From a virus, in IMG/VR virus record IMGVR_UViG_3300031651_000004, positions 1-43,451 of that record: a stretch of 43,451 bases of DNA. One strand, given 5' to 3'. This document shows positions 8,552 through 43,451 of this stretch, in pieces. Positions within the stretch are counted from its first letter, which is position 1. Every line of letters begins with the position of its first letter. A program made the position numbers and the translations under genes. The notes beneath the pieces were generated by a model that worked only from the letters and a program-made list of their open reading frames with translations, had not been told where the DNA came from and made no database searches.

Positions 8552-8826
8552 CACCTACAGAAGTAGGAATCGCGGTCAACATCGCTATCAACTTAGGAGC
8601 GTTGGGGTATGCGTTTGGCTCACTAGGGGCGAAGGTGAAACGGAACGTGGACGACATACAGGGGCTGTTCAGGAACCGAGAGATGGACCGAGAGGCCCTG
8701 AACAAAAGCCTTGGTGCCGTAGAGGGTAAGCAGGGGCAGGCTCACGGTCGCCTCCGGGAAACACTGGACAAACACGAGACGCGCATCACCCGGATGGAGG
8801 CCAAAGCGAACGGAGCAAAGGCATGA
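8548..8826 (+). CDS. Small membrane protein with coiled coil, lysis cassette
   Basis: 92 residues. One hydrophobic segment at about residues 6-28 (VGIAVNIAINLGALGYAFGSL) is followed by a charged coiled coil (NREMDREALNKSLGAVEGKQG, LRETLDKHETRITRMEAK). It overlaps the upstream stop by ATGA and the endolysin start by four bases. A single membrane helix plus coiled coil directly before an endolysin suggests a holin- or antiholin-like role, but sequence alone does not establish it. Confidence 0.75.
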   Translation: MTPTEVGIAVNIAINLGALGYAFGSLGAKVKRNVDDIQGLFRNREMDREALNKSLGAVEGKQGQAHGRLRETLDKHETRITRMEAKANGAKA

Positions 8827-18241: not shown

Positions 18242-18495
18242 CGTGACAACCTCCGCTTCTGTTCTGCCATCGCGTGAATCAGGCCCCGGCTTCGTTCGCG
18301 GACAAACTCAGCGCAATACTCGGGGTCGTTGACGAACTCGGAGCCGCCAGGGGTGCACCCTTCCAGCGCCTTCTTATAGCGCCAGAGCAGTTCGTTGACG
18401 AAGCGGGCGTCCTCAAGGTTGGGCCGACGGTACTCCTCGATGCTTTCCTTGATTCGCGCCAATCTGTCGGGGATAGACTCGGTTCCGGGGGTCAC
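18238..18495 (-). CDS. Unknown small helical protein
   Basis: 85 residues from GTG 18495, overlapping the previous stop (GTGA). Contains RLARIKESIEEYRRPNLEDARFVNELLWRYKKALEG; the E-D-A-R-F-V pattern occurs in many phage-encoded helical proteins of unknown role. Starts with the same TPGTE as the leader peptide downstream. Ends EQKRRLSR. Confidence 0.6.
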   Translation of the reverse strand: MTPGTESIPDRLARIKESIEEYRRPNLEDARFVNELLWRYKKALEGCTPGGSEFVNDPEYCAEFVRERSRGLIHAMAEQKRRLSR

Positions 18496-19160
18496 TTGGA
18501 CAACACCTTGATGAGCCGCTTCCCCTGCCAAACCTTTTCGGCAGCCCCAGCGGCAACCCAAGCGGCAGCCCCAGCGGCAGCCTCAGCGGCATCCCAAGCG
18601 GCAGCCCAAGCGGCAGCCCCAGCGGCATCCCCAGCGGCAGCCCCAGCGGCAGCCCCAGCGGCATCCCAAGCGGCAGCCCCAGCGGCATCCCCAGCGGCAG
18701 CCCCAGCGGCAGCCCCAGCGGCATCCCCAGCGGCATCCAACTCAGCGGGGGTAGCCTTGCCGTTGGCGTATCGTCGGGCGACAGCAATAGCCTTTCTGGG
18801 CCGTTTGTCGTCGGGGTACTTCTTCTCGAATAGCGGTAGTACATGAGCGGCACAGTCGCAGGCGAACAGCCGGAGATTGCGTTCCCCGGCGACTCCAACC
18901 ATGCGCACTAGTCTGGCCTTGCTTACCACTGTCTTGTTATCCCCATGTCGGATGATTTCAGCATCGGGAGCGACTTCAACCTCCCATAGGACGCCATGCT
19001 TATCTGGTATCCACCCTGCGATATCTTGTATTTCACAGATATGAAGGCCGTGGTAACATGGGACCAAGGGGGGCTCAACCTTCATCCACCCACGGGACCA
19101 AGTACCTGTGCCTCCATTTGCGGCCTTACGACCTTTGAGTAGCCACTTGTAGTAGGTCAT
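18492..19160 (-). CDS. DUF7666 / putative immunity-like protein with Ala repeat tail
   Basis: 222 residues from ATG 19160, behind GAAGAGG. Residues 1-100 (YKWLLKGRKAANGGTGTWS, PLVPCYHGLHICEIQDIAGW, LWEVEVAPDAEIIRHGDNKT, VVSKARLVRM) match the pattern of DUF7666-type proteins. Residues 105-145 (RNLRLFACDCAAHVLPLFE, PRKAIAVARRYANGKAT) are typical of the domain annotated as putative immunity protein. A 60-residue Ala/Gly/Asp/Trp repeat (AAGAAAGDAAGAAAWDAAG) precedes the basic C-terminus. Function unknown despite the family labels. Confidence 0.65.
   Translation of the reverse strand: MTYYKWLLKGRKAANGGTGTWSRGWMKVEPPLVPCYHGLHICEIQDIAGWIPDKHGVLWEVEVAPDAEIIRHGDNKTVVSKARLVRMVGVAGERNLRLFACDCAAHVLPLFEKKYPDDKRPRKAIAVARRYANGKATPAELDAAGDAAGAAAGAAAGDAAGAAAWDAAGAAAGAAAGDAAGAAAWAAAWDAAEAAAGAAAWVAAGAAEKVWQGKRLIKVLSK
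18541..18738. repeat. Imperfect tandem repeat coding Ala-rich tail
   Basis: About sixteen 12-bp units built from GCAGCCCCAGCG, GCATCCCAAGCG and similar. They encode AAGA, AAWD and AAGD steps in the protein at 18492. Copy number is likely to vary by slippage. The repeat is in codon register, so the peptide, not only the DNA, is maintained. Confidence 0.85.
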
Positions 19161-27718: not shown

Positions 27719-28801
27719 ATGAACGTAGACTACCTCATCGTCGGAGCGGGTATGTACGGCTCGGTCATCGCCCAGCAGTTGAATGACGCGGGCAAGCGCG
27801 TAGCCGTGGTAGACTCCCGCAACCACATCGGGGGCATCTGCTACACCGAACCCCTCGAACACATCATCCTCCATATGTTCGGCCCGCACATCTTCCACAC
27901 GAACAACCAGCGGGTCTGGAAGTACATGAACACCTACGCGGCGATGAAGCCCTACGTCCATACGGTTCGGGTTCATGTAGGCGGAGTCAACTACCCATTC
28001 CCCATCAATCTGGATACGATGGGTATGCTCATGGGTCTGCGCACTCCCCGGCAGGCGAAGGCGTACTTCAAGACGGCGGCCCGGCTCAACGTGGACACGA
28101 CGAACGCGGAAGGGTGGCTCATCTCGCAGGTCGGTCCCTTCCTCTACGACAAGTTCTACAAGGGGTACACGGAGAAGTTCTGGGGACGCCCGGCCAAAGA
28201 GGTTCCCGCGTCGGTCATCAAGCGGATTCCGATACGGACCAACTACGACGGGCGGTATCACTCGTCATGGTACTCCGGCATCCCGGTCGGGGGGTACACG
28301 CCGTTCTTCGAGCGGGTTCTGGATGGGATACCCGTGAGCCTTGAAACGCCTTATCCCGACTGTCTAGACGACTTCAAACCCGACCACACTGTTTACTCTG
28401 GACCGATTGATGCCTTCTTTGGCAACACCTACGGCAAACTAGAGTACCGCTCCCTCCGCTTCGATATTGAGAAACACCACACCGACGACTACCAGGGATG
28501 CGCCCAAGTCAACTACCCGGAGAAGGAGAAAGCCTACACGCGCATCACCGAACACAAACACTTCGACCACCGCTCCACACCCTATACGTTCATCACCAAA
28601 GAGTTCCCAATGGATGAGGGCGACCCGTACTACCCTGTTACCACGGATGATAACGTCCGTCACTACCAGCAGTACACGAACCTCGCGCACAAGGAAAAGC
28701 GCGTGACGTTCGGCGGCAGGCTGGGAACCTACCAATACCTCAACATGGACCAAGTGATCGCCGTTGCGTTACAGACGGCAGAAAGGCTGCTTCGGAGATG
28801 A
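27719..28801 (+). CDS. glf: UDP-galactopyranose mutase
   Basis: 360 residues, the normal length. This FAD enzyme interconverts UDP-galactopyranose and UDP-galactofuranose, the donor for Galf glycans. Evidence: Rossmann FAD motif GAGMYG at 9-14 with D32, and HIGGICYTE. Further on come GPHIFHTNN, GVNYPFPINL and FWGRPAKEVPASVIKRIPIR. The C-terminal half has SGPIDAFF, LEYRSLRFD and YTRITEHKHF. The end carries PYYPVT and GRLGTYQYLNMDQVIA. All are UGM hallmarks, including the conserved Arg residues near FAD and substrate. Phage-borne glf is unusual. Starts 62 bp after the previous gene and overlaps the epimerase (ATGA). Confidence 0.93.
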   Translation: MNVDYLIVGAGMYGSVIAQQLNDAGKRVAVVDSRNHIGGICYTEPLEHIILHMFGPHIFHTNNQRVWKYMNTYAAMKPYVHTVRVHVGGVNYPFPINLDTMGMLMGLRTPRQAKAYFKTAARLNVDTTNAEGWLISQVGPFLYDKFYKGYTEKFWGRPAKEVPASVIKRIPIRTNYDGRYHSSWYSGIPVGGYTPFFERVLDGIPVSLETPYPDCLDDFKPDHTVYSGPIDAFFGNTYGKLEYRSLRFDIEKHHTDDYQGCAQVNYPEKEKAYTRITEHKHFDHRSTPYTFITKEFPMDEGDPYYPVTTDDNVRHYQQYTNLAHKEKRVTFGGRLGTYQYLNMDQVIAVALQTAERLLRR

Positions 28802-29541
28802 AGATTTTGATGACCGGGGACAAGGGGCTCATCGGCGGGATTCTCCAGAAAGAACTCCCGCAGTATGGGTACGAAATCTCTGGATACGACAAGAAGGACG
28901 GGCTGGAACTGAACAACACGGATTGCCTGACCGAGCATCTGAAGGGGAACGAAGCGGTCGTGCATCTGGCGGGTATCCCCGGTCCGTGGGGAGAGGATTG
29001 GGAACTCTACCAGTACAACAACGTGGACGGGACCTTGAGTGTCATCGAGGCTTGCCGCCGGGCGAAGGTCGGGAGAATCGTCTATGCTTCATCAGGAGCC
29101 GTCTACGGTATGTCGAACGGGAAGATGGAGGTCCCCGAGTTGCCCTTGACCGAGGGGAGTCCGTTGGCCCTTGAGCCCCTATGCTACGACCGGAGCAAGA
29201 TTCTCTGTGAGCAGCACCTCGCCGGGGCAGAGGACATCAAGGCGCGGATCGCCCTCCGGCTGGAAACCCCGACGCCCCACGCGATTCCCCTGGCCTCACA
29301 CCTGTGGGCCTCCATCACCGAGGAGAATCTTGGAAGAGCCTTCCACGCGGCACTGAAAGCGGACTTCATCGGGTTCGGGGCCTTCAACATCGGCAACGAC
29401 CAGATGGGGGAGAAGTTCGACTCCATCGCGTTCTGGAACGAGCACTATCCGGGGTCCAGGAGTTCAATCCTGTACCCTCGTGAGCCCCTGTACTGCATCA
29501 GGAAGGCCAAAGAGATACTAGGCTATGTCCCAACATCGTAA
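28798..29541 (+). CDS. NAD-dependent sugar epimerase (extended SDR)
   Basis: 247 residues, ATG inside glf's stop. Rossmann motif GDKGLIG at 7-13, HLAG near 56, ASSGAVYG at 97-104 and the catalytic Y130-x-x-x-K134 (CYDRSKIL) define a nucleotide-sugar epimerase/dehydratase. It is shorter than GalE (about 330) and lacks much of the substrate-binding domain. Next to glf the simplest role is making UDP-galactose from UDP-glucose, the precursor for the mutase, but other epimerase specificities cannot be excluded. Confidence 0.8.
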   Translation: MKILMTGDKGLIGGILQKELPQYGYEISGYDKKDGLELNNTDCLTEHLKGNEAVVHLAGIPGPWGEDWELYQYNNVDGTLSVIEACRRAKVGRIVYASSGAVYGMSNGKMEVPELPLTEGSPLALEPLCYDRSKILCEQHLAGAEDIKARIALRLETPTPHAIPLASHLWASITEENLGRAFHAALKADFIGFGAFNIGNDQMGEKFDSIAFWNEHYPGSRSSILYPREPLYCIRKAKEILGYVPTS

Positions 29542-29550
29542 AGGAGAAAC

Positions 29551-29937
29551 ATGGCACTCACATTACTAGAGCCGTACAGTCCCGACAAGGTGCCCTTTGA
29601 TGACGACTACTCATGGGCCAGTGTCATTGTCCAGTTGCGGGAGAAGTTGGATGGGTTCACGGATTGCCGGGGATGCGGGGGTTTGTTCAACTACAACCGC
29701 TTCGTCCATGTGGGATACTTGGACCCTGAAACGGCTTCTAAGCACGGAATATGCTGGACGATGGCGTGGTCCCCGGATTCTACCGGACCCGCGGCGACCT
29801 GTCTCCCCATCAAACTCTGCCCCCACTGTGCGCGGGACAGGGCTACGGTCCTTCGGTTCATCACCATCTGGCCGGATGGGTCCTATACGGGGACAGAGCC
29901 GACATACTGGCAGGACCCCGACAGGGATGTCTGGTGA
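29551..29937 (+). CDS. Zinc-ribbon-containing protein
   Basis: 128 residues from ATG 29551, behind AAAGGAG. Two Cys pairs, DCRGCGGLFN near 39-42 and LCPHCARDR near 90-93, enclose a Trp-rich domain (HGICWTMAWSPDSTG). Ends with a Tyr/Trp-rich tail. It sits between the epimerase and a DUF3431-like protein, so an accessory role in glycosylation is possible; not identified. Confidence 0.65.
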   Translation: MALTLLEPYSPDKVPFDDDYSWASVIVQLREKLDGFTDCRGCGGLFNYNRFVHVGYLDPETASKHGICWTMAWSPDSTGPAATCLPIKLCPHCARDRATVLRFITIWPDGSYTGTEPTYWQDPDRDVW

Positions 29938-30452
29938 GCCAACACCCTGAACTCGTCGTAGCCCACTACAACGAGAACCTGGACTGGCTGGAAGGACGTG
30001 AGGCAACGGTCTACAAGAAGGGGAAAGACCTCCCCAACATAGGGCGGGAAGCGTCCACGTTCGCCCATCACCTGCTCACGAAGGAACCCGCTGAATGGAC
30101 CGCCTTCCTTCAGGGCAACGCACTCGATCACTGCCAAGACCTGTTCACGGTACTTGACAGGGAGCAAACAGATAAGGTCGTCCCACTCCACCCGTTCTGG
30201 GAGTGCGACCCCACCGGACACCCCCACCATTGGGAATGTCTGGACCTGGATGCCGCGTTCAGGTACATTCTCGAAACAGAGTGTCCCATGCGGTACAGGT
30301 TCTCTCCGGGCGCACAGTATATTGTGCATCGGTCGTGCATACCGGACCGGGGGATGTTGGAGCGGATCGTGAAAATGAGCCATGAACGAAGGGGACCTTG
30401 GGAGTTAGAAAGGTTGTGGTGGTACATTTGGACCTCACGCCAGAGCGAGTAA
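29934..30452 (+). CDS. DUF3431-like putative glycosyltransferase
   Basis: 172 residues from GTG 29934, overlapping the upstream TGA (GTGA). HPELVVAHYNENLDWLEGRE, then VYKKGKDLPNIGREASTFAH, matches the DUF3431 pattern (VVA.Y.EDLSWL ... KG ... LPN.GRE...Y..H). These proteins look like glycosyltransferases and occur in eukaryotes, bacteria and viruses. The C-terminus overlaps the terminase coding start by 55 bases. Completes a sugar-related group of three or four genes. Confidence 0.6.
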   Translation: MSQHPELVVAHYNENLDWLEGREATVYKKGKDLPNIGREASTFAHHLLTKEPAEWTAFLQGNALDHCQDLFTVLDREQTDKVVPLHPFWECDPTGHPHHWECLDLDAAFRYILETECPMRYRFSPGAQYIVHRSCIPDRGMLERIVKMSHERRGPWELERLWWYIWTSRQSE

Positions 30453-31879
30453 GGAACGACCTACAGAACGCGCTCAAGAGGATGTATAAGCGCGACCGCT
30501 GGAAGTTCTACGTTCCGTACACTTCCAGGCTGAACCCGGAGCGCAAGCCGCAGGAGGAGTTCCATCTGTCCCCGGCGCGGGTGCGGGCCATCATCGCGGG
30601 CAACCGGAGCGGTAAGACGGAGGCCGGGGCGATGGAGTGTATCTGGCGGTCCCTGGGAACCCACCCGTACAACCCCAAGTGGCACACCGACACAGCGGAC
30701 TGCGTACCCAACCACGGCTGGATCATCGTACCGGACTGGAAGAACCACGCCGCGCAGGTGACGCTTCCGAAGATGAACCTCTACCTGCCCCAGCACCGCT
30801 ACCAGTGGTACGGGGACCTGAGTATGTGGCAGGACAAGAGAACCGGCTCGACCATCACGGTGAAAACGACGGAATCCGGGCGCACGAAGTTCCAGGGGGC
30901 GGACATAGATTGGGCTTGGGAGGACGAGGAGATTCCTAACGACATCCACCGGGAGGTCAGGATTCGGCTCACGGACCGCCGGGGGGACTTGTGGATCACC
31001 GCCACCCCGCTTCTCGGCCTGACGTGGCTCATGGACGACATCTATGAGCCCTGGAAGAACAACCAAGTGAGCCCCGAAGAAATCGCCTGCTTCAACATCC
31101 ACATGCGGGAGAACCCCTACCTCTCCGAAGATGAAGTAGACTTCCTTGAGCGGGAGTTCGAGGACGACGCACTCGCCCCCGCCCGGTTCGAGGGCCGCTT
31201 CGTCCAACTGACCGGACTGGTCTATCCGATGTTCAACGCTCGGGAGACACACGCGCTCTCGCAGGACTGGAAACTCCCTGCGGGCTGGCGGGTGTTCTGC
31301 GCTATCGACTTCGGGTTCACCAACCCGTTCGTCTGTCTGTGGTTCGCTATCGACGGGGATGGCTCACTGTACCTGTTCCACGAATACTACAAGACGGAAA
31401 CGCTCATCAGCGACCATGTGCGGGCGATCAAGAGCATCAATGAGCAATACGGATGTACCCCCGCATACTACGTCGCAGACCCTGAAGAAGCGCAGTCCCG
31501 TCATGAGATGAGCGCACAGGGCATCACCACCATCCCGGCAGACAAGAAGTTCATGGAAGGCATGAACCGCGTCCGGGAGTACCTCAAGGTCCGCGACAAC
31601 GGCAAGCCCATGTTCTACGTCCACCCGCGCTGTAAGGAGTTCATCTGGGAGATGGGGCGGTATGTGTTCAAGGACCGCGCCCGCCAGTCACAGGAACTCA
31701 ACACCCATGAGATAGCCGAGAAGAAGAATGATCACGGCGCAGATGCGTTACGCTATGGTGTGATGTCCCGTCCTTCCCCCGCCCGTATGGGCCGAAAGCG
31801 CGTCCCGCCGGGTTCCTACAAGGATTGGGAGCGCACCCTCCCCACCGGAAGAACAGGCAGAATAGACCCCACAGTGTAA
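30398..31879 (+). CDS. terL: Terminase large subunit
   Basis: Up to 493 residues. The start is uncertain: TTG 30398 has AAGGGG upstream, while GTG 30416 or 30419 has GAAAGG. Numbered from 30398, the ATPase has Walker A G68-N-R-S-G-K-T74 and Walker B acidic residues D176-E177 in WAWEDEE, with TAT near 201. The nuclease half has D304 (AIDFGFTNP), D361 (VADPEE) and D445/D449 (NDHGADALRYG). It cuts concatemers and drives DNA into the prohead through the portal. The circular permutation of the window suggests headful cutting. Confidence 0.92.
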   Translation: MGVRKVVVVHLDLTPERVRNDLQNALKRMYKRDRWKFYVPYTSRLNPERKPQEEFHLSPARVRAIIAGNRSGKTEAGAMECIWRSLGTHPYNPKWHTDTADCVPNHGWIIVPDWKNHAAQVTLPKMNLYLPQHRYQWYGDLSMWQDKRTGSTITVKTTESGRTKFQGADIDWAWEDEEIPNDIHREVRIRLTDRRGDLWITATPLLGLTWLMDDIYEPWKNNQVSPEEIACFNIHMRENPYLSEDEVDFLEREFEDDALAPARFEGRFVQLTGLVYPMFNARETHALSQDWKLPAGWRVFCAIDFGFTNPFVCLWFAIDGDGSLYLFHEYYKTETLISDHVRAIKSINEQYGCTPAYYVADPEEAQSRHEMSAQGITTIPADKKFMEGMNRVREYLKVRDNGKPMFYVHPRCKEFIWEMGRYVFKDRARQSQELNTHEIAEKKNDHGADALRYGVMSRPSPARMGRKRVPPGSYKDWERTLPTGRTGRIDPTV

Positions 31880-31906
31880 ACTTCTTCTTACAGGTGTAAA
31901 TATCCG

Positions 31907-31983
31907 TTGACAGTCTTGCGTACCATGTGGTACACTGTGCTATGGTGGGAGTACGTTCTTGAACCATGTGTACCATACGGTAC
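31907..31983 (+). promoter_or_regulatory. Promoter with two palindromic operators
   Basis: TTGACA (31907-31912), 18 bp and TACACT (31931-31936). The palindrome GTACCA-TG-TGGTAC (31920-31933) covers the spacer and -10; a second, GTACC-ATAC-GGTAC (31970-31983), lies 50 bp downstream (five helical turns). The pair is ideal for a repressor that binds two sites and loops or blocks polymerase. It controls the head operon beginning at 31995. Confidence 0.7.
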
Positions 31984-31994
31984 GGGGGTGAGCG

Positions 31995-32279
31995 ATGGCA
32001 GGGCAACATCCATTGTATCAGAAGATTTCCGGGACCACGGCCGCAGCGACGGTTTCTTCCACTCCAGTCTACCTACACGCTCTCATTTGGGACGGGGCAC
32101 CCTCGGGGGCGATTTCTGTTTACGATGGCCCCACGGCGACCGGGACGTTGCTCTATACCGTGGCGTCTTCTACCGCAGCCGGGCAGCGCGACTTCGGGGG
32201 CCTGACCTGTGAAACCGGACTGGTCGTGGCCTTAGAGAAGAATGACGACTGCGTGGTAGTCTATCAGAAGATGGGTTAA
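31995..32279 (+). CDS. Small beta-rich virion protein
   Basis: 94 residues from ATG 31995, behind GGGGGTGAG. Thr/Ser/Gly-rich beta strands (YQKISGTTAAATVSSTPVYL, GAISVYDGPTATGTLLYTV, TGLVVALEKNDDCVVVYQK) suggest a small beta-sandwich, as in minor head or decoration proteins. First gene after the operator-promoter and just before the portal gene. Confidence 0.65.
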   Translation: MAGQHPLYQKISGTTAAATVSSTPVYLHALIWDGAPSGAISVYDGPTATGTLLYTVASSTAAGQRDFGGLTCETGLVVALEKNDDCVVVYQKMG

Positions 32280-32282
32280 CCC

Positions 32283-34316
32283 GTGCCGCGCAAGAAGAAG
32301 TCCTCGGAAACGAAGGCCAACGAGTATTTCGACAAGATACGCACGTCCAAGAAGGCTCGTGAGCACGAAGAAACCAAGTGGAAGAAGTGGATCGACTACT
32401 ATGAGACGCGCTACTACGACCTGACGGACTTCGAGATAGACGGCCTTCAGTCCGACCTCATCGCCATCAACCTGCTGAAAGCGAACATCCAGACCATGCA
32501 GGCTGCGGTCTACTTCCGCAACCCCAAGGTCTACGCCCGCCCCAAGCGCGAAGAGTTTCGCAAAAAAGCCCCCCTCTGCGAATCCGTTATCAACTACTGG
32601 ATAGACGAACTCGACTTCAAAAAGCAGATGCGGAAGTGTACCCTCGACTGGTTCGTGGTCGGGCACTCATGGGACAAGATAGGCTACTACGCCAACGTAT
32701 CGGAGTCCGAGCGGGGTCAGGACGCCAGTGGCGCAGAGACAGAGACGGACATCAACATCCGCAACGGACAGCCGTTCGTCCGGCGGGTGAGCCCCTTCCG
32801 TATGCTCGCAGACACCGGATGCACCGACTACGAACACGCCCGCTGGGTAGCCGAAGAAATCCTCATGCCCTACGAGGAAGCCCGGCGCAAGTACCCGGAA
32901 CTCAAGGACATCGGCCTCTCCGACCTCGCGGTTCCAGAGTCCATTTCCTCCTCGGGAGCCTACGACCAGGACCGCTGGGGAGTCGCGGAGCGCAAGGAAG
33001 GCTTCGTCAAACTCTATCAGGTCTGGTACAAAGAGTACAACAAGGACACGGACGACTACGATATCCGTGTGATGATGCTGGCCGAGGGATGGGACGAACC
33101 CCTCTCGGACGACAAGGATCAGCTGGGCCTCGAAGGGTTCCCCTACGAGTACCTCCCGTGGGACGAGTGCATCGACAAGTTCTACCCGCAGGCGATGGCC
33201 GAAGTCATCGAAGACCTGCTTCTGGAGTACAACAAACTCCGGTCGATGGAACTCAACCACCTCAAGCGGTTCGCCCGCAAGTACGAAGCCCGCAGAGATG
33301 CTTTCGACGACGCGGGAAAGACGGCCCTGCGAAGCGGGGAAGATGGGTATGTGTTCGAGGTAGACACGCTGGACGTACCCAACATCCGGGCTATCGAGGA
33401 CGCCCCGCTGGACGCGCAGCACTCCACGAACATCCGGCTCATCGAGTCCGAGGTGCGGCAACTCATCGGGTTGGACGAGTTCATCAAGGGTTCCGGCTCA
33501 CCGTCCATGACCGCTACGCAGACCGCCGAAATCTCACGCGGTACGTCCCTGCGGGTCCAGTGGCGGAAGGATATGCTGGAGGACTTCCTCATCAAGACGG
33601 TCCGCAAACTCTGGATGGTACTACAACAGTATCACGACACCGAGGATATGCTCCCCATCGTAGGACCCGACGGGCTCACGGAGTACCAGAAGTACAGCCG
33701 TGAGGAGATTCAGGGCGAGTACAAACTGGAGATCGGCGTCAACTCGACCTCTCCCCCGGACCGGCAGCAGGACATCAAGAACGCCATCGACCGCTACAAC
33801 CTGCTCCGCAACGACCCGAAGGTGGACGCCCGCACCCTCATCGTGGACATCCTCACCGCCGATGGGATGGAGAACATCGAGAAGTACGTCAAGCGGCCGG
33901 AGTCTCTTGAGCAGGAACTCATCCAGAAGGAGAACCAGGCACTTCAGAAGGGTACGCCGACGATGGCTCACCCCGGCGACGACCACCAGATGCACCTGAA
34001 GGCCCAGGAGCCCCTAGCCAAGAAACTCGCCACGCAGATTCAGCAGTTGCAGTCGCAGTTCGAGGGCATGGCGCGGGAAGCGCAGGGCGGGACCAACCCG
34101 AACGCGCAGGCGCAGGCCCAGCAGATGCAGCAGCAACTCCAGCAGATTCAGAAACTGGCCCAGGTCTGGCAGGCCCACGTCCAGCAGCACCACGCCTACA
34201 TCGAGACGGACATGGGAGCCGGGGAAGTCAAGCCTCGCGGACCTGTGGACCCGAACATCATGAACCGTCGAACCACCCGGCAGGCAGACCTCATCGCGGA
34301 GTTCCAGGGTGGCTGA
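32283..34316 (+). CDS. Portal protein
   Basis: 677 residues from GTG 32283. The order is that of podovirus portals: a basic head (KKKSSETKANEYFDKIRTSK), NLLKANIQTMQAAVYFRNPK near 60, LDWFVVGHSWDKIGYYANV near 118, RVSPFRMLADTGCTDYEHAR near 170, and a long helical C-terminus. The 520-640 region is Gln/Met-rich (QAQAQAQQMQQQLQQIQKLA), compatible with a crown or barrel. The dodecameric portal would form the DNA channel for TerL and the adaptor. Position between terL and the scaffold/capsid genes agrees. Confidence 0.85.
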   Translation: MPRKKKSSETKANEYFDKIRTSKKAREHEETKWKKWIDYYETRYYDLTDFEIDGLQSDLIAINLLKANIQTMQAAVYFRNPKVYARPKREEFRKKAPLCESVINYWIDELDFKKQMRKCTLDWFVVGHSWDKIGYYANVSESERGQDASGAETETDINIRNGQPFVRRVSPFRMLADTGCTDYEHARWVAEEILMPYEEARRKYPELKDIGLSDLAVPESISSSGAYDQDRWGVAERKEGFVKLYQVWYKEYNKDTDDYDIRVMMLAEGWDEPLSDDKDQLGLEGFPYEYLPWDECIDKFYPQAMAEVIEDLLLEYNKLRSMELNHLKRFARKYEARRDAFDDAGKTALRSGEDGYVFEVDTLDVPNIRAIEDAPLDAQHSTNIRLIESEVRQLIGLDEFIKGSGSPSMTATQTAEISRGTSLRVQWRKDMLEDFLIKTVRKLWMVLQQYHDTEDMLPIVGPDGLTEYQKYSREEIQGEYKLEIGVNSTSPPDRQQDIKNAIDRYNLLRNDPKVDARTLIVDILTADGMENIEKYVKRPESLEQELIQKENQALQKGTPTMAHPGDDHQMHLKAQEPLAKKLATQIQQLQSQFEGMAREAQGGTNPNAQAQAQQMQQQLQQIQKLAQVWQAHVQQHHAYIETDMGAGEVKPRGPVDPNIMNRRTTRQADLIAEFQGG

Positions 34317-34587
34317 CGGATGGAAGCCGAGCGAGTACCACGGAGGACTCGCCGGGATACTCAATAGCAGGAAGTTCCCGACTGCTTACTGCATCCGGGA
34401 CACGGAATACATCGAAGCGATAGATGATGTCGTGACCGGGTGGAAGGACAAGCAGCGGAAGTTGAAGGTTCACGAAGTAGAAGAGTGCGGCGACACCGTA
34501 CACGGTGGCCGCGCCGAAGTGCGTAAGCCGAAGGGAACGCTTACGTTCACAATGGACTCATCCCCGAGGGGACAAGAGGAGAAGTAA
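34309..34587 (+). CDS. Small head-region protein
   Basis: 92 residues from GTG 34309, overlapping the portal gene by eight bases. Mixed charge, no clear motif (KPSEYHGGLAGILNSRKFPT, YIEAIDDVVTGWKDKQRKLK). Located between portal and scaffold, where phages often have small assembly or head-completion genes. Function unknown. Confidence 0.6.
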   Translation: MADGWKPSEYHGGLAGILNSRKFPTAYCIRDTEYIEAIDDVVTGWKDKQRKLKVHEVEECGDTVHGGRAEVRKPKGTLTFTMDSSPRGQEEK

Positions 34588-34589
34588 CA

Positions 34590-35369
34590 ATGGACGAAGA
34601 AGCAGTCGGACAGGTCGAAGAAGCGGGACTGGAATCGGGCATCGAAACCGTTGATGACTCGGCCAGTGAGCCATCGGAGACTACTGTTGACGACACTATG
34701 GTAGACCTTGACGCTCTGGACACGAATCTGGAGAACGTGAATCTGGACGTACTCAAGGCCCGCTATGGTGAGAAGGCCCCTGAAATCGTGCAGTTGGGCA
34801 AGCAGTTTCAGGCCGACTACACGAGAAAGACTCAGGCGTTGGCGGCAGAGCGGCGGGCGTTGGACGCGATCAAACAGGAGATGGAGAAGCAGTGGAACCA
34901 GACCAATCTCCAGAAGGGCGCGGACATCGACATCAATACCGCTACTCCCGAGCAACTGTACCAGCATCTGTTGGGGGAGTTGAGTAACCGCTTCCAGACG
35001 ATGTTGGACTCGCGGGTGAACCCGCTTGCTCAGGAAGTCTCGGTCGCCAAGATGCAGAAGATGGTCAACGAGATGCAGCAGGCAGACCCGGTATTCAAGG
35101 AGCCAGAAGTGATATCCAAAGTCACTGAACTGGCCTCTGAGATGGGAAACCAGGGTGTGCGGGCTCAAGTCGTGATGCAGGCTGCCGCCTACCAGAAAGT
35201 CAAGGGGCAACTCGAAGCACTACAACGTAGTCTCAACAAGAAAAAGGCAGCGGCTGTCAAACAATCCGCTCCGGGAAGTACCGACGTGGCGACCAAAGCG
35301 GCCCCCGCCGGTTCCTTCTCTGACACCTTCGAGTCTATCCGACAGAAGGTTATCCGGGGCGAGTTGTAG
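34590..35369 (+). CDS. Scaffolding-like protein
   Basis: 259 residues from ATG 34590 behind GAGGAG. Very acidic head (DEEAVGQVEEAGLESG, VDDSASEPSETTVDD), then long charged helices (QFQADYTRKTQALAAERRAL, DAIKQEMEKQWNQTN, EVSVAKMQKMVNEMQQADP). This is the classic composition of capsid scaffolds, and the gene lies just before the major capsid gene. Assembly catalysis inside the prohead is inferred. Confidence 0.75.
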   Translation: MDEEAVGQVEEAGLESGIETVDDSASEPSETTVDDTMVDLDALDTNLENVNLDVLKARYGEKAPEIVQLGKQFQADYTRKTQALAAERRALDAIKQEMEKQWNQTNLQKGADIDINTATPEQLYQHLLGELSNRFQTMLDSRVNPLAQEVSVAKMQKMVNEMQQADPVFKEPEVISKVTELASEMGNQGVRAQVVMQAAAYQKVKGQLEALQRSLNKKKAAAVKQSAPGSTDVATKAAPAGSFSDTFESIRQKVIRGEL

Positions 35370-35393
35370 CCGCCCAAAGGAGAGTGAAGTACA

Positions 35394-36350
35394 GTGCCTG
35401 TCGCAAGCGCAGGAGGCAGTTACGACAACCTGCTCACCTCGACGATGGAGATGATCAACCCGACGCTGTACGACCAGTTCTTCGACCACCTTCCCCTCTG
35501 GAAAGCCCTCAACGGGCGCAAGAAGGTCAAGAAGTCTGGCTCGGGCGAGTCTATCCACTACGAAGTGAGTTACGGGAAGGACGACCGTGCCAAGTCGTAC
35601 GCGGACTACGGTATCCTTCACACCAACCCCACCGAGTTCATGATGCGGGCGTTCTACACCTGGAAGCAGTACGCCGTTCCGGTGACTATCTCCGGGATGG
35701 ACAAGGCGAAGAACTCCGGCGACAAGACCAAGATCATCGACCTGCTGGAAGCCAAGACGAAGAACGCCATTTCCTCGCTCCGGGACGACTTGAGCGTGGC
35801 GACCTTCGCTTCCGGTGGCGGGAACGATATCGTGGGGTTGCAGTCTCTGGTGGCCGACACCCCGACCACGGGGACCGTCGGGAACCTGAACGCCGCGACC
35901 TACTCATGGTGGCGGAACCAGTACACCAACACGGCGGGCTCTTTCGCCGGAGGTGGGCTGGGCTACATGAGGACCATGTTCAACAACTGCACCTTCGGTA
36001 CGGACCAGCCCGACATCCTCGTAACGACTCAGACGGTTCACGAGTATTACGAGGGGGCTCTCCAGCCGCAGGAGCGGTTCACCTCGACCAAGCAGGCGGA
36101 CGGTGGCATCGAGACGCTGAAGTTCCGTGGCGCGTCGGTGTTCTTCGACCGGGACTGCGGTAGCGGCCGTATGTACTTCCTGAACTCGGACTACCTGGAC
36201 CTGTGGATTCTCAACGGCCAGGACTTCAAGGCTGGGAAGTTCATCACGCCGCCCGAACAGGACGTGAGCATCAGCCAGATTTTCTTCAAGGGTGCCCTCA
36301 CGGTCCCGGCTCGGCGTTACCACGGGATCATCACTGGTATCAGCGCGTAA
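35394..36350 (+). CDS. Major capsid protein
   Basis: 318 residues from GTG 35394, with AAAGGAG upstream at a slightly long spacing. The order STMEMINPTLYDQFFDHLPL, then GESIHYEVSYGKDD, TNPTEFMMRAFYTWKQYAVP, VTISGMDKAKNSGDKTKIID and LLEAKTKNAISSLRDDL is characteristic of HK97-fold major capsid proteins of this phage group. The C-terminal part (RMYFLNSDYLDLWILNGQDF) lies where the A-domain is expected. No protease gene is seen nearby, consistent with uncleaved capsids. Confidence 0.85.
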   Translation: MPVASAGGSYDNLLTSTMEMINPTLYDQFFDHLPLWKALNGRKKVKKSGSGESIHYEVSYGKDDRAKSYADYGILHTNPTEFMMRAFYTWKQYAVPVTISGMDKAKNSGDKTKIIDLLEAKTKNAISSLRDDLSVATFASGGGNDIVGLQSLVADTPTTGTVGNLNAATYSWWRNQYTNTAGSFAGGGLGYMRTMFNNCTFGTDQPDILVTTQTVHEYYEGALQPQERFTSTKQADGGIETLKFRGASVFFDRDCGSGRMYFLNSDYLDLWILNGQDFKAGKFITPPEQDVSISQIFFKGALTVPARRYHGIITGISA

Positions 36351-36362
36351 GGGGCGATACCA

Positions 36363-36638
36363 ATGGCGATTGATTCATCCGTTGTATTCCAGACGGTACT
36401 CGGGAACCATCGGGTCGTGGTGCGAAAGCACCTCACTCCGGGGGCGGGTACGGCGAACAACATCAATACGGGAGCCGCATACGTCGTCGCGGTTTTTGCC
36501 ACTTCGACGGGCACCGGAGAAGATGTTGTTGCCTGTACCCCGAACACCTCGGACCACTCGACCGAGGCTCTCGGGCACTACACCCTGGAGTGCGAGGCCG
36601 ACGTAACCTGTTACACCCTGGAGTTCCTGTCAGGGTAG
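36363..36638 (+). CDS. Small virion protein, tandem paralogue A
   Basis: 91 residues from ATG 36363. FQTVLGNHRVVVRKHLTPGA, then CTPNTSDHSTEALGHYTLEC and EADVTCYTLEFLSG. It shares the NTSDHxTEALGHYxLECEAxVTC block with the next gene. Small beta-rich proteins directly after a capsid gene are usually decoration or stabilising proteins. Confidence 0.7.
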   Translation: MAIDSSVVFQTVLGNHRVVVRKHLTPGAGTANNINTGAAYVVAVFATSTGTGEDVVACTPNTSDHSTEALGHYTLECEADVTCYTLEFLSG

Positions 36639-36652
36639 AAAGGGGGTGAGTG

Positions 36653-36943
36653 GTGAGTATCTCAACGACTCGACAGTACATCGGTCCGCTGGGTAACTAC
36701 CGCGTGTTCATCGACACGCACACTACCCCCGGGACGCAGACGGCGAACGATATCGACACCTACGCCGGGTATGTCCTTCTGGCTATCGGCAAGCCTGGAG
36801 GCGACGTAGACCCGGACGAAAGCCTGTTCGCTGTCCGCTGTACCGAGAATACGTCGGACCACACCACAGAAGCACTCGGGCACTACTGTCTCGAATGTGA
36901 GGCGAACGTGACCTGCAAGGTCCTGGTCATCGCGGCCGGGTAA
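36653..36943 (+). CDS. Small virion protein, tandem paralogue B
   Basis: 96 residues from GTG 36653, chosen because AGGGGG at 36641-36646 is six bases away; GTG 36650 is too close. STTRQYIGPLGNYRVFIDTH, then TENTSDHTTEALGHYCLECE and ANVTCKVLVIAAG. Clear paralogue of the preceding gene, about 45% identical over the second half. Confidence 0.7.
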   Translation: MSISTTRQYIGPLGNYRVFIDTHTTPGTQTANDIDTYAGYVLLAIGKPGGDVDPDESLFAVRCTENTSDHTTEALGHYCLECEANVTCKVLVIAAG

Positions 36944-36956
36944 CATATCCCACTTG

Positions 36957-36997
36957 CCCCGGCTGGGAGGCCGGGGGTGCCCCGTAGGGATACGGGG
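36957..36997 (+). other. Two tandem perfect hairpins
   Basis: CCCCGGC-TGGGAG-GCCGGGG (36957-36976) and CCCCGTA-GGGA-TACGGGG (36980-36997), each with a perfect 7-bp stem, three bases apart. They lie in the 75-bp gap after the decoration-like genes. No U-run follows, so they are more likely mRNA processing or stabilising elements than terminators. Confidence 0.55.
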
Positions 36998-37018
36998 GTA
37001 AGGAGAGGTGAAGTAAAG

Positions 37019-37474
37019 ATGTTGATCATGAAGGCTACTGCCACCAGTCCAGAACAGGCGTTCGTCACGGCGCGAAACTGTGCCGCGACCACCGCTGTTC
37101 CGGGCGACTCGGCGCAGTGGAAGATCGATGCGAACATCAAGGGTATCGACACCGAGACGGCCAACAGCGGCGAGGAAGAGGCATACGCTGGTATCTGGAG
37201 CGAGACGACTGCTCGGTCCAGTTACGGGCTGCTCCAGGTGTACGGGTACTCCACGAAGATCAAGATGGGGCTGTCGAGTGCCGCGCTGGGAGGGTTCATG
37301 AAACTCCTGGCGGACAAGAGTTACGTCACTCCCATCATCATCGGAAACTCGGCTCCGGGACAGGATTCCGACTACGATGAGCGGTATGGTTTCGTGGTTT
37401 CGTTCAGTGTGACCTCGCTGGCGGACTCGGTTGGGACAACGGGACCGTTCGACGGGTTCATCCACGCGCTGTAA
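37019..37474 (+). CDS. Structural protein, unknown
   Basis: 151 residues from ATG 37019 (ATG 37028 is also possible), with AAGGAGAGG upstream. Beta-rich: LIMKATATSPEQAFVTARNC, then GDSAQWKIDANIKGIDTETA, YGYSTKIKMGLSSAALGGFM and DERYGFVVSFSVTSLADSVG. It lies in the capsid operon just before the hairpin at 37491 and probably encodes a minor head protein. Confidence 0.65.
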   Translation: MLIMKATATSPEQAFVTARNCAATTAVPGDSAQWKIDANIKGIDTETANSGEEEAYAGIWSETTARSSYGLLQVYGYSTKIKMGLSSAALGGFMKLLADKSYVTPIIIGNSAPGQDSDYDERYGFVVSFSVTSLADSVGTTGPFDGFIHAL

Positions 37475-37490
37475 CCAACAACGGGGAGAG

Positions 37491-37512
37491 GGGGGTTCAC
37501 TCGTGAGCCCCC
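37491..37512 (+). terminator. Possible weak terminator or attenuator hairpin
   Basis: GGGGGTTCAC-TC-GTGAGCCCCC forms a 10-bp stem with one G-U pair, followed by TTCTAA. The right arm contains the GTGAGCC heptamer. The U-tract is short, so partial termination or attenuation before the glycosyltransferase genes is more likely than a full stop. Confidence 0.45.
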
Positions 37513-37534
37513 TTCTAACCCTATAAAGGAGAAC

Positions 37535-37837
37535 ATGAAACTCTCGGACAAACTGTTCTACACCATCATGCACCTGCTCCCCCCACGGGACAAAGCGGTG
37601 TCGGTCATGAAGTGTAGGAACTGCGGAAAACTGAGACTCATGGGGGACCTGCACAACGAGAAGAGGCGACACTGCCCGAGATGCAACGGGTCTGCGGTGA
37701 TCGTACCGAAGGACTTTTCGTTCCGTGACAAGATGGACTACCTATGGGCGGCTCTGTTCCGCCGCAAGGTTTTGCTCTTTGGCATAGATGAAGGGGTGCA
37801 TTGGGACCGGGACAACCCCGGCATGGAGGTCCAGTGA
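37535..37837 (+). CDS. Zinc-ribbon protein
   Basis: 100 residues from ATG 37535, behind AAAGGAG. VMKCRNCGKLRLMG near 24 and HCPRCNGSAVIV near 46 are one zinc ribbon. A helical segment and a hydrophobic patch (KMDYLWAALFRRKVLLFGI) follow. It is coupled to the glycosyltransferase (GTGA), so an accessory role is likely. Confidence 0.65.
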   Translation: MKLSDKLFYTIMHLLPPRDKAVSVMKCRNCGKLRLMGDLHNEKRRHCPRCNGSAVIVPKDFSFRDKMDYLWAALFRRKVLLFGIDEGVHWDRDNPGMEVQ

Positions 37838-38538
37838 AGCGGGAAAAGAAGGGCCTGAAGCGGCCGAAGGTCGTGCATCTGGTGATGCCCTCCAACCGGG
37901 GCGAGATAGATGTGCGCGTTGTGTTCGCCTATCACCACATGGTCATCCGGTTCGTCACCGAAGAGTTGGCGAAGCCGGACGGCCCGGACTACGGGCTGTA
38001 CGAGTACAACATCACCGGAGCGTTCATCACCGACGCACGGAACCGGGCGGCAGAAATCGCCATCGAGGGTCAGCCGGACAGGAACCTTCCGCCAGCCGAC
38101 TACCTTGTCATGATGGACGATGACATGGTTCCCCCGTCGGATACCATCGCCCGGCTTCTCGCGCACAACAAGCCCATCGTCGCTCCCCTGTTCCATCACC
38201 GTAGGCCCCCGTTCAAGCCTGTGGTGATGGAATACGCATCGACCGGGGATAAACTGGAATACGTCATCGTGAACCCCGAAAAGTCCCTTCAGGAAGTGGA
38301 CGCCGTAGGAGGGGGACTGGTCTGCATCGACGTGAACCGCACCCTCCGCAAGATGATCCGCCCGTTCTTCTGGATGGCTCCAGAGTACGGAGAGGACATC
38401 TACTTCTGCCACAAGGCCAAGCAGGAGGCAAAGGCTCGGGTGTTCGTGGACACGACCATCGACGTAGGGCACCTCGGGGATAAGGCTGTTGTGGACCGGC
38501 ACTACGCCGAGGCTGCGAGGAAGCAGTTGGGGATATGA
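37834..38538 (+). CDS. Glycosyltransferase, GT-A-like
   Basis: 234 residues from GTG 37834, overlapping the previous stop. TGAFITDARNRAAEIAIEG near 61-79 and YLVMMDDDMVPPSDTIARLL near 90-110, with D95-D96-D97 as the DxD metal/UDP-sugar site, are the typical pattern of GT-A glycosyltransferases. DAVGGGLVCIDVN near 168 and HLGD near the end fit the acceptor side. It transfers a sugar from a nucleotide donor, target unknown. It is coupled by ATGA to the fused enzyme downstream. Confidence 0.8.
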   Translation: MKREKKGLKRPKVVHLVMPSNRGEIDVRVVFAYHHMVIRFVTEELAKPDGPDYGLYEYNITGAFITDARNRAAEIAIEGQPDRNLPPADYLVMMDDDMVPPSDTIARLLAHNKPIVAPLFHHRRPPFKPVVMEYASTGDKLEYVIVNPEKSLQEVDAVGGGLVCIDVNRTLRKMIRPFFWMAPEYGEDIYFCHKAKQEAKARVFVDTTIDVGHLGDKAVVDRHYAEAARKQLGI

Positions 38539-39812
38539 AACTCAACCTCGGTTGCGGCCACCGGCTGTTCCCGGAGGAAGAGGGGTGGATCAACGTAGAC
38601 CTCGACCCTGTGGGTGGGGTGTTCGAGGCGGACGTTCGCAACCTCCCGTGGAAAGGGGAGGCGGACCTTATCTTCGCGGGGCACCTGCTGGAACACTTCC
38701 GGCGCGAGGAGGCGGACAGCCTGCTCCGACACTGGAAAGCGGCCCTGAAGCCCGGCGGTACGCTGGATGTCATCGTGCCCGACATGCTGACAGCGTGCCG
38801 GGACATCGCGGAGCACGGGGTTGACCACTCCTACGGGAACGAGCCGTGGATGAACCCATACGCGCTCCTTTGGGGATACATAGCACCTGGGAAGCCGCTC
38901 ATGGCTCACATGGGGGGATTCTCGGCGGAGTCCCTTGGGAACGCGCTCGTGGGTGCAGGGTTCGAGGACGTGGAGGTTCAGACGGGCAAGGACGACTGGT
39001 GCCCGGCGATAATCGCTCGGGGGCGTAAGCCGGTACACGGCAGGGTGGACATGGTAGTGCCCTGCTGGAACCACGCGGAAATGACCAAGGGGCTGCTTGA
39101 GTCCATCGTGCAGACCCGTCATCCGTACAGGATGATACTCATTGACAACGGTTCGACGGATGAGACTCCGGCGCTCTTGCTTGAGTTCAAGGCAAAGCAT
39201 CCGGAAACCATCCTCATCAGGAACGAGGAGAACCTGGGGTTCGTCAAGGCCACCAACCAGGGTCTTGAAGCCTCAGACTCTCCCTACGTCATGCTGTTGA
39301 ACAACGACGTAGAGATATTGCCGGGGGACACGCTTTGGCTAGATCGGATGCTGGAACACTTTGGGGAAGATGTCGGGGCGGTCGGGCCTACCTCGACGTG
39401 GGTGATGGGGTTCCAGAAGAACGAACTGGCCGGGTTCCCCCGGCACCATATCGTACCCGTTCTTAGCGGGTTTGCCATGCTTGTCCGGCAGGATGTGGTG
39501 AAGAAGATAGGGGTGCTGGACGAAGTGTTCGGAATGGGCGGCAACGATGACTTGGACTACTCGTTCAGGATTCAGGAAGCGGGGTACAATCTCGTCGTTG
39601 CGAGGGATGTGTTCGTCTTGCATGAGGGCTCTGTGAGCCTAAAGACGTTCACCAAAGAGAAGTACGAGATGCCTGAAGAAGATATGAGGTATGTCGAGTG
39701 GCTGGACCAGGAAACAAGAGACGCACTCATCGAGAAGTGGGGACAGGAAAGAATCGATACCATCAACAGCTTCTATGAGTGCTTCACAGCGGTAGAAGTC
39801 TTACACATCTGA
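38535..39812 (+). CDS. Methyltransferase-glycosyltransferase fusion
   Basis: 425 residues from ATG 38535 (ATGA). Domain 1 (1-160): KLNLGCGHR (SAM motif I), GWINVDLD, GHLLEHF and LKPGGTLDVIVPD, a class-I SAM methyltransferase of the LCG type. Domain 2 (171-400): VDMVVPCWNH, ILIDNGSTDETPALL, NLGFVKATNQGLEAS, LLNND258 and GNDDLDYSFRIQEAG, a GT2 glycosyltransferase with H363 near the end. The fusion suggests one sugar is transferred and methylated on the same acceptor. It lies among head genes, so virion decoration is the natural hypothesis. Confidence 0.85.
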   Translation: MKLNLGCGHRLFPEEEGWINVDLDPVGGVFEADVRNLPWKGEADLIFAGHLLEHFRREEADSLLRHWKAALKPGGTLDVIVPDMLTACRDIAEHGVDHSYGNEPWMNPYALLWGYIAPGKPLMAHMGGFSAESLGNALVGAGFEDVEVQTGKDDWCPAIIARGRKPVHGRVDMVVPCWNHAEMTKGLLESIVQTRHPYRMILIDNGSTDETPALLLEFKAKHPETILIRNEENLGFVKATNQGLEASDSPYVMLLNNDVEILPGDTLWLDRMLEHFGEDVGAVGPTSTWVMGFQKNELAGFPRHHIVPVLSGFAMLVRQDVVKKIGVLDEVFGMGGNDDLDYSFRIQEAGYNLVVARDVFVLHEGSVSLKTFTKEKYEMPEEDMRYVEWLDQETRDALIEKWGQERIDTINSFYECFTAVEVLHI

Positions 39813-41647: not shown

Positions 41648-43451
41648 ATGGCGACGTGGTACTGCGACTACACGGACGGCAACGACACCACCGGCACGGG
41701 CACGGCGGCGAACCCGTACAAGACCATCCAGAAGTGCCACGATGAGGCGACTATCGGGGATACCATCATCCCTGCGGCGGACACCTACTCGGAGGCCTTG
41801 GTATTCACGAAGTCTATCACACTTTCGGCGGCGGAGGCAGGGACGGTCACGGTCAAACCAGCGGCGGGGAATAGTGCCTGTCTGGACTTGAACGCTAACG
41901 GTGTGACTACGACGATTCAGAATGTCGATTTCGATGGCTCACTGTTGGACAACGCGAACTCAAACGGCATCTACACGAACAACAGTGGCACCATCACCAT
42001 CGAGGACTGCACCATCACCCCGCCGACAGGGAACACGACAGACTACGGCATCCGGTTCTCCTCGGCCACGCTCGTTCTTCTTCGGGTGGTCATTTCTGGA
42101 GACGTAACGAACGTCATCAAGCAGGAAGGCACCAGCGGCAACATCACCTTGACGGACTGCACCATGACGCAGACCGGAACCGGCGGGAACTGCATCAACG
42201 GCGCGGCCACCTTCACGGGTCCTACCATCACCGTCATCCGTGGAACCTACTCCATCACGGCGACGGGCAATACGGACGACGTAATCAATGCAGGAGCCAA
42301 CAACAAACTCTACTGTCTCGGAGCCCTCGTCATCCACAAGGGCACTTCGTCAACTGCCGGAGAATGTGTTGGGATTGCCTTTAACACTACTGCGGCGACG
42401 CAACTCCAAATCGTCTACAACTGCACCGTCGCAGCCCCGACGTGCATCAGGAACAGCACCGTCGCAACTTATAGCGGGAAGGCGTCTATCAAAAACTGTG
42501 GGCTCCGCTCGACCGTCGCGGGTACGAACGTCGGGTGCATCTACTTCAGCAACGCTTCCGGCGAAGCAGATACGGCGATGGATTACAATGGATACTATCC
42601 GTCTACCGGATGCTTCTACGGCCGAATCGTCGGTACCGACTATGACACACTGGCCGCATGGAAAACCGCCTGCTCAGATGAAACCAACGCAGTGGACGGC
42701 GACCCATCGTTCACCGATCCCGACACGGACGACTACACCATCGGGGCTTCTTCGACGTGGCTGAACGCCGGGGTGGACGTAGGACTCGGGTACGCCGGGA
42801 GTGCGCCTGACATCGGGTACTACGAAGTCGAGTCCTCGTCTATGGCGATGACGGGCATCTACGACTTCAAGCAGGCGGACGGGACGCAGTATCCCCTGTG
42901 TGTCTGCTCGGGAACCGTCAACATCTTCGACCGCACCCCGGAGACAGAGGAGTCAGGGTTCACGCCCATCGGGTCGGGGTTCACCCCGGACGCGGACTCA
43001 TGTTGGGACTTCCAGACCGACTCGGATACCTGCTGGATGCTGGGGGCAGCGGAGGCCCTGCACAAGTGGGACGGGCAAACGAACGATACGGGAACTATCG
43101 CCCTGACGAACGGTTCTACCGCCGTTGTGGGTTCAGGGACCGACTTCACCGACCCTGCGTTGGGAGCCGACGGGAAACTCCACGTCACCGCGACAGGGGA
43201 AGTGCTCACCATCGCCTCAGTGACGGATGAGACGAACATTGTGCTGGCAAGTGCCTATCAAGGACCGACACAGGCGTCATTAGCGTTCACGGCGTACACC
43301 TATCAACCTGCCGATGGCTCACCCCCTTCGGGGAAGTACATCCGGGTATTCAACAACTACCTGTTCCTGGCCGGGAACTCGACGTACCCCTCCCGTCTCT
43401 ACTGGTCCAACCTCAAGGACTTCGAGACGTGGGGCGGCGCGGACTTCATCG
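41648..43451 (+). CDS. Tail stabilisation protein with beta-helix domain (continues at base 3)
   Basis: Open from ATG 41648 to the window end; across the circle it totals 895 residues. Residues 1-395 are a parallel beta-helix of pectate-lyase type, with repeated Thr/Ser/Asn coils such as GTAANPYKTIQKCHDEATIG, TVTVKPAAGNSACLDLNANG, TIQNVDFDGSLLDNANSNGI and TIEDCTITPPTG. Residues from about 400 enter the stabilisation beta-propeller (GIYDFKQADGTQYPLCVCSG, DSCWDFQTDSDTCWMLGAAE). The beta-helix may bind or cleave host polysaccharide or serve as a structural spike; no catalytic residues can be named. A nearby 60-residue peptide carries the missing usual N-terminus. Confidence 0.8.
   Translation, partial: MATWYCDYTDGNDTTGTGTAANPYKTIQKCHDEATIGDTIIPAADTYSEALVFTKSITLSAAEAGTVTVKPAAGNSACLDLNANGVTTTIQNVDFDGSLLDNANSNGIYTNNSGTITIEDCTITPPTGNTTDYGIRFSSATLVLLRVVISGDVTNVIKQEGTSGNITLTDCTMTQTGTGGNCINGAATFTGPTITVIRGTYSITATGNTDDVINAGANNKLYCLGALVIHKGTSSTAGECVGIAFNTTAATQLQIVYNCTVAAPTCIRNSTVATYSGKASIKNCGLRSTVAGTNVGCIYFSNASGEADTAMDYNGYYPSTGCFYGRIVGTDYDTLAAWKTACSDETNAVDGDPSFTDPDTDDYTIGASSTWLNAGVDVGLGYAGSAPDIGYYEVESSSMAMTGIYDFKQADGTQYPLCVCSGTVNIFDRTPETEESGFTPIGSGFTPDADSCWDFQTDSDTCWMLGAAEALHKWDGQTNDTGTIALTNGSTAVVGSGTDFTDPALGADGKLHVTATGEVLTIASVTDETNIVLASAYQGPTQASLAFTAYTYQPADGSPPSGKYIRVFNNYLFLAGNSTYPSRLYWSNLKDFETWGGADFI
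43332..43451. repeat. Terminal overlap repeat, right copy
   Basis: Repeats bases 1-120 at 119 of 120 positions (G43439 where the left copy has T108). See the left copy for interpretation. Confidence 0.95.

Follow-up and report, generated by a model that had tools for sequence, protein, structure and literature searches.

Glycosylation of virions by the phage's own enzymes is a known phenomenon, as the first-pass annotation of the DNA analysed here had noted: in mycobacteriophages Che8, Corndog and Myrna, capsid and tail tube proteins are glycosylated by phage-encoded glycosyltransferases (as summarised from Freeman et al. 2023 in PMC12363180 and PMC12619734). A phage-encoded UDP-galactopyranose mutase (UGM, the product of glf) was described in 2019 as gp6 of Agrobacterium phage Atu_ph04, and its authors tied the enzyme to galactofuranose (Galf) of the host cell wall (PMC6630229). 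Here we describe five sugar-related genes of a near-complete, podovirus-like phage, IMG/VR virus record IMGVR_UViG_3300031651_000004, analysed over its full length (positions 1-43,451; hereafter the window). They encode a UGM, a nucleotide-sugar enzyme of the short-chain dehydrogenase/reductase (SDR) fold, a DUF3431-family protein, a glycosyltransferase (GT) and a methyltransferase-glycosyltransferase (MT-GT2) fusion. We propose, with about an even chance of being right, that they form a glycosylation module, carried by the phage and expressed alongside its late genes for packaging and head formation, in which UGM would feed a Galf-transferase of the DUF3431 family and virion proteins would be decorated.

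By its sequence, the product of glf (27719..28801, + strand, 360 aa) is a true UDP-galactopyranose mutase. It scored 338.4 bits against TIGR00031 (aa 4-358; equivalog cut-off 303.75) and 228.6 bits against PF03275, and aligned end to end with solved UGMs, including the E. coli enzyme in the PDB (E 6e-94). Loss of the catalytic arginines or FAD-binding residues had been named beforehand as grounds for rejecting the first-pass reading; the GxGxxG FAD motif is kept (G9-G11-G14), as are R173, R275, W155, Y180, Y305 and Y340, with R173 and R275 corresponding to what we take to be the essential arginines R174 and R280 of the K. pneumoniae enzyme. The protein should convert UDP-galactopyranose (UDP-Galp) to UDP-Galf, i.e. 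it should constitute a phage-supplied UDP-Galf step. Phage UGMs are of a known kind and are not rare: they were found in 88 of 50,697 GenBank phage records, all at <60% identity to the window UGM, and in at least 581 IMG/VR stretches, and are thus widespread in uncultivated viruses. With Atu_ph04 gp6 already published, these counts run counter, as regards UGM as such, to the expectation in the first-pass annotation that a self-supplied Galf pathway would be unusual. Identity between the window UGM and other phage UGMs is ∼33-46%.

The second gene (28798..29541, + strand, 247 aa) encodes an SDR-fold, epimerase/dehydratase-like enzyme with 65 bits against PF01370 (cut-off 20.9), in which a Gly-rich NAD motif (TGDKGLIG) and a YxxxK motif (YDRSK) can be read. 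Its score against the galE equivalog was 46.9 bits, short of the 262.3-bit cut-off and confined to aa 40-149; solved epimerases likewise matched over aa ∼39-145 only, and no homologs were found in a search of viral contigs. Judged by these matches it is a real protein of the epimerase superfamily, as first annotated, that is not shown to be GalE, and its identification as a UDP-glucose 4-epimerase was not supported. Because the score is so far below the galE cut-off, the suggested route by which UGM and the epimerase turn UDP-glucose into UDP-Galf is unproven. UDP-galactose could come from host GalE.

The third enzyme, a candidate GT-A-like transferase of 172 aa (29934..30452, + strand), had no direct match to PF11913 (DUF3431; cut-off 25 bits) in either the Pfam or the own-genome search. 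It did match a protein of IMG/VR locus L009 (related loci are given L numbers throughout) at 30% identity over nearly its full length (tblastn E 1e-15), and this homolog scored 57 bits against PF11913. In the alignment, which displays the DUF3431 motifs YNExxxW, K, GRE, FxQG and a late E, the window copy keeps all eight invariant columns. Since the L009 homolog passes the PF11913 model that misses the window copy itself, membership follows by transitivity, and on this sequence evidence the earlier label "DUF3431-like" was apt.

A profile search for further DUF3431 loci, grouped by near-identity, yielded 13 phage lineages besides the window phage. DUF3431 lies directly beside glf in eight of these (L009; L026-28; L029; L030/32/33; L031; L035; L037/60; L038), always directly upstream and usually overlapping it, and no glf was found within the retrieved records of the other five. 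The paired genes are strongly diverged between lineages (22-38% identity for DUF3431, 32-55% for UGM), which argues against recent copying of a single cassette. A reverse survey started from the best 80 UGM loci of a separate scan, which formed 54 clusters at 80% identity. DUF3431 occurred within about 7 kb of glf in five clusters (exclusively downstream in two), and this fraction may be an overestimate because some of the UGMs that seeded the survey were themselves linked to DUF3431. Among 93 immediate glf neighbours, three matched PF11913, the others including epimerases, GT2, GT90 and methyltransferases. DUF3431 is thus usually found with glf but glf is usually found with other partners, a pattern that would fit DUF3431 as one of several Galf-using enzymes. 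No DUF3431 protein was detected in GenBank phage records with three queries (the window copy and two others), and no relatives were found in two scans of bacterial genomes. A plasmid of Planctomyces sp. SH-PL62 (L043) carries a DUF3431 gene (6010-6747) near two glycosyltransferase genes; no glf is annotated in the 12-kb stretch around it.

Structure prediction, which had been recommended for each enzyme, gave a confident model for DUF3431 (AlphaFold2 from 15 sequences; predicted local distance difference test (pLDDT) 91.3, predicted template modelling score (pTM) 0.87) and an unusable single-sequence model for the SDR protein (pLDDT 35). Among the Foldseek matches of the DUF3431 model to solved structures, all of them insignificant, most were GT-A or nucleotidyltransferase folds, e.g. 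LH3, the PBCV-1 capsid-linked glycosyltransferase 2p73, IspD and Mimivirus enzymes; a sequence search found no solved structure. Two viral models matched strongly: a 693-aa phage protein named "Glyco_tranf_GTA_type" (template modelling score (TM) 0.83) and a 769-aa "flavin containing amine oxidoreductase" of Pithovirus LCPAC202 (BFVD A0A481Z5S5; E 7e-8, TM 0.75). Judged by its name and length only, the latter probably represents a giant-virus fusion of DUF3431 with UGM, because UGMs match the amine-oxidase family. Locus L029 encodes a further composite protein (7209-8648), directly upstream of glf, in which DUF3431 stands behind a domain of ∼255 aa that appears GT-like by eye and has no Pfam match. 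Both composite proteins, the giant-virus one being probable, likewise hint at transfer of Galf or another sugar. From the gene adjacency and the model we infer that the window protein is a small GT-A-like transferase using UDP-Galf from UGM. We suggest more tentatively, as a possibility that we rate below the module as a whole, that the DUF3431 proteins constitute a family, not described before, of small galactofuranosyltransferases resembling GT-A enzymes, and that glf-DUF3431 is a portable phage pair placing Galf on the phage's own virion proteins. No description of the recurrent pair, or of this functional prediction, was found in the literature searched.

The remaining two enzymes stand amid the head genes and are real, as first reported. 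The GT (37834..38538, + strand, 234 aa) is of GT-A type, with an MMDDDM motif, and matches phrog_12406 glycosyltransferase (E 1e-7). The 425-aa fusion (38535..39812, + strand), open across its full length, joins a class I methyltransferase (aa ∼1-165) to a GT2 domain (aa ∼170-400); PF00535 scored 75.7 bits at aa 174-285 and the weaker methyltransferase domain 28.3 bits against PF13489 at aa 38-147 (cut-off 27). Its best PDB matches are chondroitin synthase and TagF, and a search of viral contigs returned no match to the fusion. These two genes lie ∼8 kb from the UGM-SDR-DUF3431 block, and it is conceivable that the blocks were acquired independently, the first forming one pathway and the second drawing solely on host sugar nucleotides, and no glycan being common to both. 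Other partners are found at most phage glf loci, and the GT homolog in MW202711 sits after the major capsid protein (MCP) gene plus one small gene, without glf. A profile built from the window GT and this homolog placed L004, L006, L007/8, L024 and L036 in the same family, with no member in loci retrieved only through MCP or the terminase large subunit (TerL). The carriers L004, L006 and L007/8 all have glf and the L036 member directly precedes DUF3431; these co-occurrences speak for a link between the blocks, and we consider separate acquisition improbable.

As first annotated, the five genes flank and interrupt the packaging and head operon; all are intact, on the + strand and tightly packed. 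Overlaps of 4 nt join glf to the SDR gene, the GT to MT-GT2, and DUF3431 to a preceding gene (29551..29937, + strand) for a 128-aa protein with two CxxC pairs, which lies after the SDR gene and matched no family in the Pfam and PHROG scans. The end of DUF3431 overlaps by ∼30 nt the start of TerL (30422..31879, + strand; phrog_2 114 bits, PF03237). The portal (from 32283, PHROG-based), a putative scaffold (from 34590) and the MCP (35394..36350, + strand; phrog_9953 195.6 bits, with relatives in podovirus-like phages) follow. GT and MT-GT2 sit between the MCP and head genes and a further head protein (from 40556, PHROG-based), and the GT is directly preceded by a 100-aa zinc-ribbon-like protein (37535..37837, + strand; weak Pfam matches, below curated cut-offs). 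With this arrangement the sugar enzymes are probably translated together with the late head genes. Cassettes of glf and GT genes also stand amid head genes in unrelated phages (L004, L006, L007, L009, L011, L026-28 and L030), with the orders TerL-MT-DUF3431-glf-portal (L009), GT-GT-DUF3431-glf-TerL-portal (L026-28), TerL-DUF3431-glf (L030), portal-GT-glf-scaffold-MCP (L007), MCP-GTs-MT-glf-tail (L004) and MCP-GTs-glf-connector (L011).

This setting bears on whether the module instead adds Galf or a methylated sugar to polysaccharides of the host surface (O-antigen, capsule or wall), thereby blocking superinfection or changing a receptor. Galf and UGM are classic components of surface polysaccharides, the genes resemble those of capsule clusters, the GT2 domain is like exopolysaccharide enzymes, and the PHROGs category for the GT families concerned is "moron, host takeover". 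However, the genes lie in the late head operon and not in a lysogeny region, and the scanned proteins include no recognisable flippase, polymerase or membrane-bound GtrB-like partner. Strongly hydrophobic, transmembrane-like segments are absent from all five proteins as well (Kyte-Doolittle mean over 19 residues at most 1.06), as would be expected of cytosolic enzymes; peripheral glycosyltransferases of the lipopolysaccharide type also lack such segments, so this observation is compatible with action at the host surface too. Overall we regard modification of the host surface as rather unlikely, albeit the strongest competitor to decoration of the virion.

Phage glycosyltransferases often act on DNA (discussed in PMC12619734), and a few other phage glf genes adjoin thymidylate synthase, dCMP deaminase or DNA polymerase genes, so that glycosylation of hypermodified bases in the phage's own DNA was also considered. 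No hydroxymethylase, thymidylate-synthase-like or base kinase gene was recognised among the larger replication-region open reading frames (ORFs) scanned, and the MT and GT2 domains are like polysaccharide enzymes. For want of hypermodification genes among these ORFs this explanation was set aside as very unlikely.

Under the favoured explanation, decoration of virion proteins by a late-expressed module, UDP-Gal would be supplied by host GalE or by the window SDR enzyme and UGM would convert UDP-Galp to UDP-Galf, from which the DUF3431 protein would transfer Galf. The GT and MT-GT2 would then lengthen the glycan or cap it, with a methyl group as a probable addition. As acceptor we envisage at least one virion protein synthesised simultaneously in the cytoplasm, a situation much like that of the glycosylated virions of mycobacteriophages. 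A virion acceptor is indirectly suggested by the late head-operon location, the lack of membrane partners, the mycobacteriophage precedent and Ser/Thr-rich proteins encoded in L031 and L061. Such low-complexity proteins, with up to 40 of 50 residues Ser or Thr, were found near DUF3431 in three lineages (L031:4545-5381; L061:6613-8333; L042:11915-12394, minus strand), two of them directly after DUF3431 in L061, and in none of the remaining loci examined. They are possible O-glycan acceptors.

Several observations weigh against this explanation. Nothing in the Foldseek comparison of DUF3431 with solved structures was significant (all E > 0.1), the best match, to the LH3 glycosyltransferase domain, was weak (E 0.12, TM 0.45), and a DxD motif is not evident in the protein. 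Comparing DUF3431 with UGM in a mirror-tree test gave no significant correlation (Mantel r 0.26, p 0.16), and 49 of the 54 glf clusters lack DUF3431. Head-gene location was seen in about 7 of 16 glf lineages, which by a rough estimate is near expectation and may not exceed chance, and the search for Ser/Thr-rich proteins turned up none in the window. Finally, the first-pass annotation had looked to co-occurrence of the five genes in relatives: the complete set was not found in any other genome, nor was any close relative of this phage, and it is at the level of pairs and triples, which recur in other phages, that co-occurrence was borne out.

The last 120 bases of the record (43332-43451) are a direct repeat of bases 1-120 with a single mismatch (43439 G vs 108 T), and because of this terminal repeat the record probably represents a whole genome that was assembled as a circle. 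Elsewhere in the window, positions 18539-18735 hold about 16 copies of a tandem 12-bp unit (89% matches), which on the minus strand encodes a (Pro-Leu-Gly-Leu/Met) repeat inside an ORF at 18413-18898. An ORF of at least 601 aa (41648-43451) runs past the window end; its N-terminal half is beta-helix-like and it matches no Pfam family.

If the favoured explanation is true, some phages themselves supply the rare-sugar donor with which their particles are decorated, which bears on the spread and purpose of virion glycosylation. The analysis also offers a testable function for DUF3431, a family to which none has been assigned, based on the Galf link through gene adjacency in many unrelated phages, a weakly GT-A-like model and the probable giant-virus fusion. 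Animals lack UGM, which is a studied drug target, and partner enzymes are therefore of wider interest.

Compared with mycobacteriophages Che8, Corndog and Myrna, the window phage likewise encodes its glycosyltransferases, whereas virion glycosylation has been demonstrated by experiment there and is predicted here; no mention of UGM or DUF3431 was found in the sources consulted on these phages. The serotype-converting gtr and O-antigen modules of temperate phages also consist of phage-carried glycosyltransferases, but the window genes lie in a late head operon and no GtrA/GtrB-like membrane component was seen among the scanned proteins. With PF11913 DUF3431 proteins the window copy shares the conserved motifs, and its homologs exceed the family cut-off, while it is itself short, divergent and missed by the Pfam model. 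Atu_ph04 and other phages with an annotated glf resemble the window phage in encoding UGM; Atu_ph04 differs in being a T4-like phage with a 143-kb genome. Lastly, the window UGM is a full-length homolog of bacterial Glf (TIGR00031/PF03275) that exceeds the equivalog cut-off and retains the catalytic and FAD residues, yet it is encoded by a phage, within a late head operon.

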